This document shows positions 24,777 through 34,652 of a stretch of DNA of 64,000 nucleotides, piece after piece. How positions within the stretch are numbered: position 1 is the stretch's first letter; each line of letters begins with the position of its first letter. Location of the stretch: positions 1 to 64,000 of IMG/VR virus record IMGVR_UViG_3300050821_002963; one strand, written 5' to 3'. Position numbers and translations under genes: made by a program. The notes beneath the pieces were generated by a model. The model did not search any database, had not been told where the DNA came from, and saw only the letters and a program-made list of their open reading frames with translations. This DNA is from a virus.

Positions 24777-24842
24777 GTGGCTAGCAAAGTCGTGAATGTA
24801 CAACTCACGCACAGGAAAGCTTGTCTCCTTGGTGGGCCTGAA
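24777..24842 (+). pseudogene. Remnant of the original helicase gene 5' end
   Basis: The first 22 codons of the HNH frame encode V-x-LTHRKA-x-LL, as does the start of the intact helicase at 25343. The six LTHRKA codons differ at four of six synonymous positions (CTC/TTA, ACG/ACA, AGG/AGA, GCT/GCA). This is what remains when a mobile endonuclease enters just after the helicase start and brings a foreign copy of the gene start with it. Confidence 0.6.
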
Positions 24843-25346
24843 GTTTGGAAAGTAATTCCAAGTTTCCCACGTTATAAGGCGTCAAGCTTTGGCCGGGTCA
24901 AAGGCAAGAAAGTAATTTTGAGCCAGGTCATGTGTGGAAAGTATTTGGCAGTTCATGTTTACGATGGCGAGAAGAAGATTAAGCGTGTACATATTTTGGT
25001 CGCGGAAGCTTTCCATGGACCTTGCCCGCCAGGTAAAGAAGTGAATCACAAAGATACTGATAAGCTGAATAATCGCTCGGGAAATCTTGAATACCTAACG
25101 AGAAAGAAGAACATGGAGCATGCAGTAAAGAATGGGCTTACAGCAAAAGGAGAAAGGCACGGGAATTCCAAGTTAACAGAGGCAGATGTGAAAGAGATAA
25201 AGAGAAAGTTTGGACCGTGGTTTATTCCAAGAAAGAAGTTACCAGTTCCTATTCAGCAAGAGCTTAGAAGTATGGCTAGAAATCGTGGAGTAGCAATAGA
25301 TTCAATCCATGCTATTCTACGTGGGCAGCTTTGGAAGCACGTATGA
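24777..25346 (+). CDS. HNH homing endonuclease fused to a helicase gene remnant
   Basis: 189 residues from GTG 24777. Residues 23-45 (EVWKVIPSFPRYKASSFGRV) are a NUMOD4-type DNA-binding start and residues 72-115 carry the HNH core (RVHILVAEAFHG...EVNHKDTDKLNNRSGNLEYLT). The C-terminal part (KLTEADVKEI) is a likely helix-turn-helix. Residues 1-22 do not belong to this family. They match the start of the helicase encoded downstream (both contain LTHRKA-x-LL), so the endonuclease appears to use the original helicase start. Its stop overlaps the intact helicase start (ATGA). Confidence 0.85.
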   Translation: MASKVVNVQLTHRKACLLGGPEVWKVIPSFPRYKASSFGRVKGKKVILSQVMCGKYLAVHVYDGEKKIKRVHILVAEAFHGPCPPGKEVNHKDTDKLNNRSGNLEYLTRKKNMEHAVKNGLTAKGERHGNSKLTEADVKEIKRKFGPWFIPRKKLPVPIQQELRSMARNRGVAIDSIHAILRGQLWKHV

Positions 25347-26884
25347 GAACGATACGAGTTTCGTTAACACACAGAAAAGCAGAATTGCTAAGTTCGTATC
25401 CGTCAGAGTTAAATGACATTTTGAAATATCGCAAAGTTGGCTGGGACTGGACACCATCGGGGAAAGCCTACATCCACAATAAAGCAGCAGGGATTGTGGA
25501 CCCAGTTACGGGTGAGATTCCCGGATGGGACGGGTACATTCACCTGATGCGTGATGGTGAAATGGGTGCCGGAGTCTTTCTAGCAAAGAAAGACGAGATT
25601 GAGAAAACCCTCAGCGTCAAATTCAAAATAAAAGACCAGCGGTTACCCCTTGCTTTCGGACCGGAAGAAGTCACCGACTTGGATAAGGAAGGACGTATCT
25701 ACCAGTTGGAGTGTGTGGAAGCAATGGTCAACGCTTCCATGACGGGTGGGTTGGTCCTCCAAGCGACGGGTTCGGGGAAGACGTACACAACAGGGAAGTT
25801 CTTTCGTCGCTTAAAGGGTAATGCCCTATTCCTAGTCGATGAACTTACCCTGCTCAAGCAGGCACAGGACGAGCTAGGAAGCGTTCTGGGGGAAGATATA
25901 GGGGTCATTGGTAACTCAATATTCGACCCCAAGCGGATAACAGTTGGGACCATCCAAACCGTGCACCTGCACAGAAGAGACAAGTCCTATTCCAGTTGGA
26001 CCAAGAGTTTGAAAGTTATCATTATAGATGAGGTGCATTTAGCGCTGAATCGGAGAAACTTCCAAACGGTTCGCAGTATCAACCCACCAGCAATTTTCGG
26101 ACTAACAGCCACATTGGAGTTGAAGAAGAAGCATATCGCTATGCAGGCGTACGACCTGTGCGGTCCGGTTATCTATCAGTACCCTTTGAGTCAGGGAGTA
26201 GAAGAAGGTTACCTGAGTAGGGGAGTTGCGGTGCAGGTCCTCTGCGATTCGGGGAAACCTGCTCCAGTACGGAGGGGAAATAAAAGGTTCTGGTTCCTGA
26301 ACAGAATGTTGGGGAGGAAGGATTACCAGAAAGAGTATAGGGAGTACATCGTTGAGAGTGAGAAGAGGAATGAATTAATCCTCAGTTTGGTACAAGCGTG
26401 CCACAGTCGGGGGAAGTACATCATTATTCTGGTGGAGAGGGTTAAGCATTTGGAAACCTTGAGTGCGATGTTCGATGGGATTCCACACCTGTTACTCTAT
26501 GGAGACAAGTCGGTAGAGGAAAGAGTAGAGGGGAAAGACCTGTTTGAGAAGGGTAAGGTAAGGGTCATCCTGACCAACAAGATATTCAAAAAGGGAGTCA
26601 ACATTAAACGTGTAGACGTTATCCTGGACGGAGCTGCGATGAAGTCAAAGAATGACGCAGCGCAGAAATACGGACGGGGAGTTAGGTTGTCAGATGAGAA
26701 GTTGGGATTGATTTACCTGGACATTGGGGACGTTGGGAACAGATTTGAGAAAGCTGCAAAGAGTAGAATCAGCGCAATCAAAAAACTGGGAGTTCCGATA
26801 TATAAGGTGGACCCCCAGATTGGAATTCTCAAAATTCTGGATTTAGCTGAGAAGAAACTGAAAGTAGAAGTTGAGAAAAGTTAG
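25343..26884 (+). CDS. SF2 (DEAD/DEAH-like) helicase
   Basis: 513 residues. Motif I ATGSGKTYTTG is at 141-151, motif II DEVH at 229-232, motif III LTATL near 257. Motif VI (KYGRGVRLS) is in the C-terminal RecA-like domain. The N-terminal 110 residues precede the motor and contain LTHRKAELL. Similar phage helicases (UvsW/SSL2-like) remodel forks and recombination intermediates. ATG 25343 overlaps the HNH stop; GGAAG lies 5 bases upstream. The gene start seems to have arrived with the HNH element. Ends just before an intrinsic terminator. Confidence 0.85.
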   Translation: MRTIRVSLTHRKAELLSSYPSELNDILKYRKVGWDWTPSGKAYIHNKAAGIVDPVTGEIPGWDGYIHLMRDGEMGAGVFLAKKDEIEKTLSVKFKIKDQRLPLAFGPEEVTDLDKEGRIYQLECVEAMVNASMTGGLVLQATGSGKTYTTGKFFRRLKGNALFLVDELTLLKQAQDELGSVLGEDIGVIGNSIFDPKRITVGTIQTVHLHRRDKSYSSWTKSLKVIIIDEVHLALNRRNFQTVRSINPPAIFGLTATLELKKKHIAMQAYDLCGPVIYQYPLSQGVEEGYLSRGVAVQVLCDSGKPAPVRRGNKRFWFLNRMLGRKDYQKEYREYIVESEKRNELILSLVQACHSRGKYIIILVERVKHLETLSAMFDGIPHLLLYGDKSVEERVEGKDLFEKGKVRVILTNKIFKKGVNIKRVDVILDGAAMKSKNDAAQKYGRGVRLSDEKLGLIYLDIGDVGNRFEKAAKSRISAIKKLGVPIYKVDPQIGILKILDLAEKKLKVEVEKS

Positions 26885-30821: not shown

Positions 30822-32198
30822 ATGTCTGAAGAAACATTCTTGTCTGATGCGCATTTTGTGGATGAGCTGATAAAACGCCTAATTCATGATCGCCAATTCT
30901 TGGAGACGGCTTCTCATTTACTTTCAGCGGAAGATTTCTCGAAACTGGATGCACACGAAGGCAATGAAAGAAAAGTAGTGGCTGGTATGGCTCTGGATTT
31001 CTGGAACAGATACAGAGAACCATTGGGGCCGATGCTAAGGGCGGAATGTCTACAATGGTCTCAGAGGTCTGGGGGTTCGGCAGCGAACAAGGCCAGGTTC
31101 TTGGAATATGCAGATACACTGAAGATGAATGGCCACAAGCCTGCACCAGCCGAGGCGGTGCTGGAGAAAGTAAAGCAGTACAAGATAGACAAGGAAATCA
31201 CCAAAGCTATGCTACAGATGCAATCGGGTCTGGAGAAAGGGCTGATGACGCCGGACTTATTCATGGCGGCGGCGAGAAATGTGGTAGACGCGGTTGGTAA
31301 GGACTTTGGTCGGCCAAAGAATATTTTTTCCGATAAAGAACTGGAATTGAGAATAGCGCGGCGGCAGCTACAGATGCAAAGGGATAGGTTCCCGGTACTT
31401 CTCATTGACCCTATCGACAGGATGATTAGGATTATCTCCAGACGACACTTGGGACTGATACTGGCTCCATATAAGAGGGGGAAGACAACTCTCTTCGTTT
31501 GGTTGGGACTAGCCTATGCTTTGCAGGGACTTAACGTACTACACTTCACATTGGAAGACCCAAGAGAGGATATAGAAGACAGATACGATTCAGCTATCAC
31601 TGCCCTGCCTACGACCAGACTGGCTCAGGTACCTGAAAAGGTGCGGGCACGGTTCAAGCTCTATAAAAGGTTGATTCGGTCCAAGGTAAAGGTGGTCGAT
31701 GGGACGAACGGGGACACGACTATCGGTACGGTAGAGAATACTTGGGAGAGGGAAAGAAACAACGGATTCACAGCAGATGTGGTATTGATAGACTACGACG
31801 ACGAAATCCGGCCCATGAAGAAGAGAGATGAAAGGAGAATGGAGTTTGCGGACATCTATCGGGACTACAGATCGTTTCTTGGAAGGAACCAATTAATCGG
31901 TTGGGTAGCTTCCCAGACGACTAGACGGTCGGAAGATATGAAAATCATCTCCGGTAAGGAAATCGCGGAAGATATCTCAAAGATAAGAAAAGCTTCTTTC
32001 GCGATGAGCATGGGCAAGGGAGAGTGGGGAGATAACTCGGTCTTCCTTTGGGTGGCTGCACACAGATACGATAAGCAGTATGTCGGGGCTCACGTTATCA
32101 CGGACTACGACCGGGGCATATTCTACGACAGAGACGAGACTTTGAAAAGGGAGAAAATAGAACGTGCGAAAGCAACAGCGGCAGCAACGAAACCCTAA
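30822..32198 (+). CDS. DnaB-like replicative helicase
   Basis: 458 residues. Walker A APYKRGKTT is at 215-223, Walker B VVLIDYDD at 320-327, and the LEDPREDIEDRYDS segment follows the first strand as in DnaB-family RecA folds. Residues 1-160 form a helical N-terminal domain that probably contacts primase. As hexameric fork helicase it would work with the primase at 33702. First gene after the 30732 promoter. The C-terminus overlaps the next gene by 35 bases. Confidence 0.85.
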   Translation: MSEETFLSDAHFVDELIKRLIHDRQFLETASHLLSAEDFSKLDAHEGNERKVVAGMALDFWNRYREPLGPMLRAECLQWSQRSGGSAANKARFLEYADTLKMNGHKPAPAEAVLEKVKQYKIDKEITKAMLQMQSGLEKGLMTPDLFMAAARNVVDAVGKDFGRPKNIFSDKELELRIARRQLQMQRDRFPVLLIDPIDRMIRIISRRHLGLILAPYKRGKTTLFVWLGLAYALQGLNVLHFTLEDPREDIEDRYDSAITALPTTRLAQVPEKVRARFKLYKRLIRSKVKVVDGTNGDTTIGTVENTWERERNNGFTADVVLIDYDDEIRPMKKRDERRMEFADIYRDYRSFLGRNQLIGWVASQTTRRSEDMKIISGKEIAEDISKIRKASFAMSMGKGEWGDNSVFLWVAAHRYDKQYVGAHVITDYDRGIFYDRDETLKREKIERAKATAAATKP

Positions 32199-32745
32199 AA
32201 TCGGTTACCATCATACGTCTTGGGAATGTTGGAAGCAGATACAGAAGGCTGGGGCTATCCTTCCTTATCGGCACATGAGACACGAACAGGAATTGGTAGA
32301 CTCTGGATTCAAGCCACCAGTTCTGGGGGTTTGGATTTGGACTGAGCCTATGGATTTGGCTTCGGAATACGCCAACGTGTTTTGGCACGTGTGTACTAAA
32401 AGGACGAAGAGAGTCGTGATACTACAGGTCGAGTGGTACGAGAGTGAGAGGTTGCTGACAGGGGATGGGAGAAACTATGTTTCCCTCTATCACAGAATCA
32501 CGTGGGACAATGTGGTGGAGTTTCACGAGAACTCGATAGCGACCATCCTCGGTAGTCCGATACCACTGGCTGGAATAAAACTACTAAGGGAGTACGACTT
32601 TTCAGATCATGTGAGGATAGTCCATGACTTTAATCGTTCCTACGGCGTACAGGCGCCTTTACTACCGGGAAAGGAAACAGAACATTTGCCTGAGGTGTTT
32701 CAAGCCAGCCACAGTCGGCTTGAGATGCGACAAGTGCAGGGCTGA
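32164..32745 (+). CDS. Possible ADP-ribosyltransferase-fold protein
   Basis: 193 residues from GTG 32164 inside the helicase end. The start (IGYHHTSWECWKQIQKAGAILP) resembles the H-x-T...I...G entrance of ART folds as in DarT and related toxins. It is followed by VLGVWIWTEP and VVILQVEWYESE. The typical H-Y-E triad is not certain. Similar unknown proteins occur in other phages. A NADAR protein, whose family can remove ADP-ribose, is encoded at 52247. ART assignment is a weak inference. Confidence 0.4.
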   Translation: MRKQQRQQRNPKIGYHHTSWECWKQIQKAGAILPYRHMRHEQELVDSGFKPPVLGVWIWTEPMDLASEYANVFWHVCTKRTKRVVILQVEWYESERLLTGDGRNYVSLYHRITWDNVVEFHENSIATILGSPIPLAGIKLLREYDFSDHVRIVHDFNRSYGVQAPLLPGKETEHLPEVFQASHSRLEMRQVQG

Positions 32746-33109: not shown

Positions 33110-33226
33110 GTGTTTGACTTCTTCGATATCCTCTCCCAGCACGGGATTGAGGTAAAGGAAAGTTACGGCTCGGAAGACGAGTTCAGAATCAATTGTCTGT
33201 TCTGCACGGACATGGGAGTTAGTTAG
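33110..33226 (+). pseudogene. Truncated 5' end of the original primase gene
   Basis: GTG 33110 (GGGGAG 6 bases upstream) opens a 38-residue frame ending in TAG 33224-33226, directly against the ATG of the HNH gene. By eye 21 of 36 residues match the start of the intact primase at 33702 (shared FF-x2-LSQ-x-GI, DE-x-RI, CLFC-x-DMG). Most shared residues use different codons. It is the left-over start of the gene that the HNH element interrupted. Confidence 0.8.
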
Positions 33227-33709
33227 ATGAAAGAAAAGTGGAGGCCAGTTTGCGGGGGAAAGTATCAGATATCTGACTCGGGAAGATTTCGTAATGCTAG
33301 AACAATGCAGCTACTGAAAATTGGTCATGGAGCTACAGGCGGTTATGCGACAGTTGTGTTTTATGATGAACAGGCTCGTCAAGTTACAAAAAGAGTACAT
33401 CGTTTGGTAGCAGCAGCCTTTCTCGGTCCTTGTCCAGTTGGTATGGAAGTGAATCACAAGGATACGAATAAAAGAAACAATTGTTTGGACAACTTAGAGT
33501 ACGTGACCTCGAAAAGGAATCATGCACACGCTAGGAGTAGAGGATTGTGGTCCTCTTGTAGAAATCGCTATTATCTTACTCCAGAATTGGTTTTGAGAAT
33601 TAGAAAGGAAGCAGCAACAAGGACTTGTGCTGACGTTGGAAAAGAATTTGGCCTAGCCCCTCAGACAGTTTCGAATATTAGAAACTACAGAGTTTGGAAA
33701 AATGTTTAA
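33227..33709 (+). CDS. HNH homing endonuclease inserted in the primase gene
   Basis: 160 residues. NUMOD4-like start (EKWRPVCGGKYQISDSGRF), HNH core at about 57-95 (RVHRLVAAAFLG...EVNHKDTNKRNNCLDNLEYVT) and a C-terminal helix-turn-helix (ADVGKEFGLAPQTVSNI). It resembles the HNH gene at 24777. It lies exactly between the truncated primase start and the intact primase, overlapping the latter by 8 bases. No intron fits in the available space, so this is a free-standing endonuclease. Confidence 0.88.
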   Translation: MKEKWRPVCGGKYQISDSGRFRNARTMQLLKIGHGATGGYATVVFYDEQARQVTKRVHRLVAAAFLGPCPVGMEVNHKDTNKRNNCLDNLEYVTSKRNHAHARSRGLWSSCRNRYYLTPELVLRIRKEAATRTCADVGKEFGLAPQTVSNIRNYRVWKNV

Positions 33710-34652
33710 CTTTTTTGAGCTGCTAAGCCAGAAGGGCATAGACATTAGGGAGAATGCCTCTAGCCAGGATGAGTATCGTATATGCTGTTTATTTTGTGTT
33801 GATATGGGCTACACACCTGATTTTAAGTTCAGACTTGGGTTCAACGTTCAATCTGGATTGGGGCATTGTTTTAACTGCGGTTGGTCTTCTAGAAAAGTAA
33901 TCATAGAGATTCTGAAAAAGCTGGGAGAAGGATACCAGGAAGTAACGACGGAGAACTACACCAAGCAGACTAGGAAAAGACCGGAGCCAGTTAAGTTACC
34001 AGAAGGATTTGAGCTATTAGCAGACACGGATGAAGACGACCCAATGTTCGGGGAAGCAAGGCGGTATGTGGCAAAGAGGGGAATTACCGAGAATCAGCTG
34101 AAAAAACACCTAATAGGAGCGACGGTAGCCGACTATCGTTACAAGAACAGTATCATCTTCCCCGTACCAATGGCGGATGGGAAGCTGGCTGGTATCGTGT
34201 CGAGAGACTACACGGGAAAGCGGGACCCAAAGTATTTGAACTCCATTGGTACGAAAGTAATCTATAACGTGTTTGGGGACTACTCGGAAGTGGCTGTGAT
34301 TCTCTCGGAAGGGATTACGAAGGCACTGGCCATAGAGAGGGCGGTAGGAGAGGGCATATGCTCTGGTGCGACTCTTGGCCACTCCATAACGGACACGCAG
34401 ATAGAAGGGTTGAAGAAATTCCGGGAAGTAATCCTTTTTCCAGACCCAGACTACGCCGGGCTGGTTGGGTTTATTGGCGTGGCGGCGAATCTGAGACCAG
34501 TGGTGAGGAAAGTAACAATGGCGTGGCCATGGCCACAGAGACAGGCAGACGACTTATCGGTAAAAGAAATCAGAGAGCACCTGAGAAATAGAAAAGAGTT
34601 TACCCCAGCGGTGCAGTTGCGGTTGAAGATGGAGTTGAGAGGTAGGGGATGA
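33702..34652 (+). CDS. DNA primase (zinc finger plus Toprim)
   Basis: 316 residues. The zinc-binding domain uses Cys 28/29, 32, 56 and 59 (CLFC ... CFNC). The Toprim domain shows VILSEGITKALAIE near 204-217 and VILFPDPDYAG near 245. These are the parts needed to make RNA primers beside the DnaB-like helicase. The first ~40 codons duplicate the truncated fragment at 33110 with different codons and are A/T-richer, so they probably came in with the HNH element. Start overlaps the HNH stop. Confidence 0.85.
   Translation: MFNFFELLSQKGIDIRENASSQDEYRICCLFCVDMGYTPDFKFRLGFNVQSGLGHCFNCGWSSRKVIIEILKKLGEGYQEVTTENYTKQTRKRPEPVKLPEGFELLADTDEDDPMFGEARRYVAKRGITENQLKKHLIGATVADYRYKNSIIFPVPMADGKLAGIVSRDYTGKRDPKYLNSIGTKVIYNVFGDYSEVAVILSEGITKALAIERAVGEGICSGATLGHSITDTQIEGLKKFREVILFPDPDYAGLVGFIGVAANLRPVVRKVTMAWPWPQRQADDLSVKEIREHLRNRKEFTPAVQLRLKMELRGRG

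Follow-up and report, generated by a model that had tools for sequence, protein, structure and literature searches.

HNH endonuclease genes between duplicated ends of conserved phage genes

Two HNH genes beside duplicated gene starts in one phage genome

The window analyzed here (the whole stretch of 64,000 nucleotides) comprises the initial 64 kb of a viral record of 131.5 kb. One replication cluster in it encodes a DnaB-like helicase, a primase of the DnaG type (phrog_47), and a 5′-3′ exonuclease. Small ORFs lie between the DnaB-like helicase and a 5′ stub of the primase gene. An ORF of 193 aa (32164–32745) overlaps the helicase end and has no family match in Pfam or PHROGs. The primase stub is followed by an HNH gene and then by the intact primase (Table 1), at coordinates that an ORF check found as originally predicted. 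The ATG of the HNH gene comes directly after the TAG of the stub, and the ATG of the primase overlaps the end of the HNH gene by 8 nt.

Table 1. Features of the helicase and primase loci (positions in the window)
Feature	Positions	Strand	Basis
Second HNH gene, first 18 codons an in-frame helicase 5′ stub	24777..25346	+	HNH_3 6.4e-18
Helicase 5′ stub MASKVVNVQLTHRKACLL inside the HNH ORF	24777..24830	+	9/15 aligned residues identical to the downstream helicase start
Intact SF2 helicase, ResIII and Helicase_C, UvsW-like	25343..26884	+	Pfam ResIII 2.5e-22; relatives
Helicase codons 1–32, proposed replacement end	25343..25438	+	GC3 0.34 vs 0.57 for the rest
Primase 5′ stub of 38 aa, starting with GTG and stopping at TAG; proposed to be left over from the original gene start	33110..33226	+	22/36 residues identical; native-like codons
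HNH endonuclease gene, NUMOD4 and HNH_3, helix-turn-helix-like C-terminal tail	33227..33709	+	Pfam, PHROGs
Intact primase, 316 aa	33702..34652	+	phrog_47 DNA primase 3.7e-42; DNAG_N and Toprim
Intact primase codons 1–36, proposed foreign replacement end	33702..33809	+	Codons unlike the stub, low codon score, low GC, terminase analogy

The primase stub and the start of the intact primase align without gaps, and the match claimed in the original prediction is real, with 22 identical residues out of 36 instead of the 21 counted by eye. The BLOSUM62 score of this alignment is 132, whereas the highest of 20,000 shuffles reached 49 and no other ORF start in the window scored above 33. As had also been proposed, most of the shared residues use different codons: just 5 of the 22 have the same codon, and identity at third positions is 31%. 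Among the degenerate codons common to both copies, 3/20 are identical when 8.0 are expected from the codon usage of the genome (p = 0.012), which is a weak excess of differences over saturation. The stub is native-like in composition (GC3 0.66, codon score 0.36), and codons 1–35 of the intact primase have a codon score of −2.2, above the 1st but below the 5th percentile of windows in the genome. Codon usage is in this respect suggestive of a native stub and of a less native start of the intact primase. The zinc finger and Toprim columns of the intact primase are conserved with its relatives.

The HNH gene of the primase locus has the characteristics of free-standing endonucleases of the NUMOD4/HNH_3 kind. 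It is a separate ORF with its own start and stop, lies outside a self-splicing intron or intein, and combines HNH_3 (1e-15 in Pfam) with NUMOD4 (2.9e-6), both above the curated cut-offs; it also matches phrog_59 at 1.4e-44. Its GC3 is 0.33, versus about 0.54 for the genome. No intron family matched this region in Rfam at E ≤ 1, and the sole Rfam match (STnc180, E 0.82) was taken as chance.

A second HNH element of the same layout, absent from the original prediction, is found at the SF2 helicase (24777–26884), so that two instances occur in one genome, each with synonymously different codons. The HNH ORF of this element opens with MASKVVNVQLTHRKACLL and the helicase with MRTIRVSLTHRKAELL, and the helicase ATG and the HNH stop codon overlap as ATGA. 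Because the HNH-less relatives of the helicase (57% and 54% identical) start M(A)RTVLVLLTNRKA or MQTTKVVLTNRHA, the N-terminus of this HNH protein can be identified as a helicase stub. The stub is short (18 codons, 15 aligned residues), and scores 44 with the intact start, against a shuffle maximum of 39; it is the top match among the 442 ORF starts in the window. Two of the nine identical residues have the same codon, and in LTHRKA, common to both copies, codons differ at 4/6 positions; compared with saturation, the differences give p = 0.41.

Change points in GC3 were significant only for concatenations of the HNH gene with its downstream gene, and they are imprecise. For the HNH gene plus helicase, the change point falls at codon 32 (permutation p = 0.001), with a wide interval and with the HNH/helicase border excluded only moderately (2.86 lnL). 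For the HNH gene plus primase, the best position is codon 77, again with a wide interval, and the HNH/primase border is only 0.95 lnL worse. Change points within the helicase alone (p = 0.26) or the primase alone (p = 0.34) are not significant. By analogy with the terminase described below, the breakpoint of the primase would lie at codon 36, or possibly further downstream.

A DNA search of the phage collection with the region gave no match. Two IMG/VR contigs hold the helicase-primase cluster at 50–61% identity, without an HNH gene at either place and with single, uninterrupted primase and helicase starts. Their primases (n = 2, only ~50% identical) fit both copies to the same degree, with 15 and 17 identities to the stub versus 14 and 16 to the intact start, and the search for HNH-less relatives of the primase gave none that is closer.

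Native and foreign gene ends in terminase and metallopeptidase genes

In the case of a terminase large subunit (L108/L401), a population of relatives was found that includes HNH-less genes. Most HNH-less terminases begin LSVLQVKTSELFERNYTAPTRIVVNQGGSRSGKTYSI, which is the sequence of the stub, and the HNH-linked intact terminase begins MSVLELKAGPVFQWNYDSKTRITVNQGGSRSSKTYSI, like a different lineage (L415). Ahead of the stub, the DNA has 98% identity to the HNH-less L403, and codons 1–31 of the stub have 82% nucleotide identity to L403 and 89% to L435/L437. Codons 1–32 of the intact terminase have 53% nucleotide identity to L403, and from codon 33 onward identity is 96%, codons 33–49 being identical letter for letter. 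The maximum-likelihood breakpoint is at codon 32 (interval 32–33), and the similarity of the stub to the native sequence stops at about codon 28, near the breakpoint. This pattern of identities implies that the HNH gene and foreign codons 1–32 entered the native gene at a single point. Misassembly does not explain it, because three other contigs (L410, L450, and L467) carry the same arrangement with diverged sequence. In L402 (1420–1540), the terminase lacks an HNH gene and joins a foreign-type 5′ end to a native-type body, perhaps because an earlier HNH gene and stub were lost.

The metallopeptidase elements are the mirror image, at the 3′ end. In seven HNH-bearing loci, the last 15 codons of the stub are 89–100% identical in nucleotides to the best-matching HNH-less Pseudomonas phage, and the ends of the intact genes have only 42–69% identity to HNH-less phages. 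The comparison of L331 with phiAH14a gives 80–93% for the gene body, 50–73% for the last ~90 codons, and 100% for the stub. Identity falls about 90 codons (L331) or 50–60 codons (L364 and L198) before the gene end, so that the foreign stretch is tens of codons longer than the stub, which would follow from co-copying of donor sequence beside the break.

The sequences of these sister elements indicate insertion at one point in conserved coding sequence, leaving a native remnant and a foreign functional end with the HNH gene between them. An element that entered conserved coding sequence with a divergent replacement, as originally proposed for the primase, is thereby found to the base in the terminase and also in the metallopeptidase; for the primase and helicase of the window we infer the same history of native stub and foreign end by analogy. 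The original prediction took the presence of both copies in HNH-less relatives as evidence against itself, and none was seen among the relatives compared.

Recurrence among HNH genes

The survey covered 298 non-redundant HNH places of the same family, from viral and genome contigs. A place was of the 5′ type if the DNA directly upstream of the HNH domain encodes a likeness of the start of the downstream gene, and the 3′ type is the reverse, for gene ends. Mismatched pairs and 866 ordinary ORFs of the same contigs served as controls. Duplications of the 5′ type are present at 7/164 HNH places versus 2/619 control ORFs (p = 4e-4; p = 0.006 when each host-gene family is counted once, 5 families). 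Those of the 3′ type are present at 11/147 places versus 0/528 control ORFs (p = 4e-8; p = 5e-4 with each family counted once, again 5 families).

Clear 5′ cases beyond the window are the terminase large subunit (L108 and L150), a C5 methyltransferase (L122), in which the stub INVLSLFDG is fused to the HNH protein, and L383, where the gene is small and its contig was binned as Patescibacteria. In the latter, 14/17 residues are identical, 2/14 have the same codon, and the stub is fused in frame. L166 and L265 are probable 5′ cases. In L265 (1866–2661), a ParB-like gene has a likely 5′ stub (MTNLKIEYLSKKELKE*) ahead of the HNH gene, and another ParB-like frame lies upstream. Clear 3′ cases are a DNA polymerase A (L192; 23/24 residues identical, 8/23 with the same codon), a PD-(D/E)XK nuclease (L163), an HNHc_6 nuclease gene (L258), and the phage metallopeptidase (seven loci). 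The layout thus recurs across gene families and in numerous phages that are unrelated, with overlapping or adjacent stop and start codons on the restored side. Several stubs end in or near conserved motifs, which we take to be the zinc finger in the primase, Walker A in the terminase, and motif I in the methyltransferase.

Among the remaining survey matches, L110, L098, L134, L091, and L269 were discarded as low complexity or weak, L118 is a weak match, and L327, L374, L185, L387, and L295 were inspected and not accepted. In L303 (2182–3379), an HNH protein fused to a Cys-rich region adjoins a Cysteine-rich KTR gene, and a repeat of the zinc-ribbon domain may explain the apparent 3′ duplication.

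Origin of the arrangement and known systems

The identities in the terminase and metallopeptidase genes indicate that a foreign gene end moves together with the endonuclease and makes the interrupted gene whole again. The arrangement, including the history proposed for the primase of the window, is very probably that of a free-standing HNH homing endonuclease cassette within a conserved gene, carrying a divergent copy of the severed gene end. In an ancestor of the phage, the HNH endonuclease would have cut or nicked the native primase gene at its zinc-finger codons, and the repair donor would have been an HNH gene just upstream of the donor's own diverged primase. Repair would have copied in the HNH gene with the 5′ end of the donor primase, joined to the recipient primase in conserved coding sequence. 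The original 5′ end of the recipient would be left as a dead stub, presumably now supplying expression signals, those for the start, upstream of the HNH gene. The restored primase would begin at the HNH stop codon with the donor 5′ end, so that the target gene remains whole. With its different spelling, the new 5′ end has probably lost the match to the cut site, and to judge from the difference at the junction, the restored allele would resist cutting. For the most part, the codon differences resemble those that a foreign allele would gain by ordinary divergence, not selected recoding.

If the primase gene, or its start, had long ago been duplicated in tandem in this lineage, and the HNH gene had later inserted by chance while the copies diverged in place, both copies would be accounted for, and duplicated starts without HNH genes do occasionally occur, as in the two positive control ORFs. 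Such a history is nevertheless very improbable: a non-coding stub should not retain 22/36 residues with mostly synonymous changes, copies on either side of an HNH gene are found in many gene families, in both orientations, and HNH-less terminase and metallopeptidase relatives hold one copy only, which is stub-like. HNH/NUMOD4 proteins are often intron-encoded, and T4 gene 60/mobA has bypass, so one may ask if the interruption is spliced or bypassed (by a group I intron, intein, or ribosomal bypass), joining the stub to the primase body. With no intron family found in Rfam, this is hardly conceivable; since the stub closes with a stop codon and the primase has a complete start of its own, no splicing is needed.

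The HNH gene could also be a bystander of ordinary phage recombination, whose exchange boundaries are often located at endonuclease genes (PMC10448857), the stub being the accident of one imprecise crossover. Homing endonuclease genes flanking exchanged segments are reported in phages (PMC10448857), and the foreign stretch of the 3′ cases passes the stub as in co-conversion. We regard this explanation as unlikely, because the repeated layout of stub, HNH gene, and restored end with overlapping stop and start codons points to insertion at a cut site, the terminase breakpoint nearly coincides with the stub end, and none of the 3′ controls is positive. The two views overlap, as homing-driven exchange would look alike. 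A function that keeps the stub is compatible with a homing cassette that restores its target: the HNH gene may be expressed from the start and ribosome-binding site of the stub, through translational coupling or fusion, or the peptide that the stub encodes may itself be active. The TAG followed directly by ATG in the primase case and the in-frame fusions in the helicase, methyltransferase, and L383 cases fit such a role, which is possible but doubtful, as the terminase stub of L150 is degrading, with a stop earlier than in L108.

Among phage cassettes that lack an intron and protect themselves, the one of T4 with bypass and mobA comes nearest. The closest precedent overall lies in fungal mitochondria, where mobile ORFs (mORFs) carry foreign C-terminal ends, in atp6 of Allomyces and in atp6, atp9, cox2, and nad3 of Glomus (PMC3630166). 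In these, as here, an endonuclease ORF in a host gene is flanked by a duplicate gene end, a foreign copy of the one severed; the native remnant clusters with insert-free relatives and the inserted end is divergent (PMC3630166). The terminase and metallopeptidase sister elements likewise have a native remnant and a foreign functional end. In mORFs, however, it is the C-terminus that is replaced, with LAGLIDADG or GIY-YIG endonucleases, whereas the elements described here have HNH genes, are found in phages, and concern both 5′ and 3′ ends, those of the window replacing the 5′ end. The window elements thus work like an mORF, yet are not filed as one: they very probably belong to a phage, 5′-capable version of gene-end-replacing homing elements that is real and recurrent.

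Among phages, T4 mobA and Aeh1 mobE are likewise free-standing HNH genes in core genes, with start/stop overlaps with their neighbours, but the gene is split into two reassembling polypeptides, and the part of the source available describes no replacement end (PMC2988022). In intronless homing by T4 seg/mob and Skunavirus HNHE, the recipient is similarly assumed resistant, the cut site being replaced by the donor allele, but in the accessible portion of that account neither a duplicated native stub nor interruption of the target is described (PMC12724721). Phage homing endonuclease reviews and surveys cover splitting, co-conversion, and boundary effects, and replacement ends are not described in their accessible sections (PMC2988022, PMC10448857, PMC12724721). 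The original prediction knew of no phage description of this form, and no phage description of a gene-end-replacing homing element was found in the open-access literature.

Synthetic Cleave-and-Rescue and home-and-rescue drives also link a nuclease to a recoded copy of the gene it breaks; those are engineered, whereas here the system is natural, only the gene end is replaced in situ, and the restored allele, diverged in sequence, may resist the nuclease. On balance, we favour the wider reading that these are widespread phage selfish elements, each pairing an HNH gene with a diverged end, 5′ or 3′, of the essential gene that it targets. They would home into conserved core genes without inactivating them and render the new allele cut-resistant, acting as natural cleave-and-rescue drives that each have a rescue end of their own. 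Essential conserved genes offer the most stable cut sites, and the elements would show how intron-less endonuclease genes persist there without a splicing device, the spare gene end being brought along. They offer a natural counterpart of the engineered drives and would make 5′ and 3′ ends of phage core genes mosaic, which can mislead phylogenies and annotation. The junction of stub and restored gene is an immediate target-site prediction for each enzyme, and the targets of many orphan HNH genes become directly testable.

The genome has a third HNH gene (record positions 90890–91393, L063:1891–2394), between methyltransferase-like and GDP-mannose dehydratase-like genes (named by eye); a duplicated gene end was looked for at this gene and none was seen. 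The SF2 helicase has relatives in two near-identical contigs (L057–L062) that align in separate pieces, with an internal stop. Residues 390–409 of the query are matched twice in these relatives, and another insertion is possible there.
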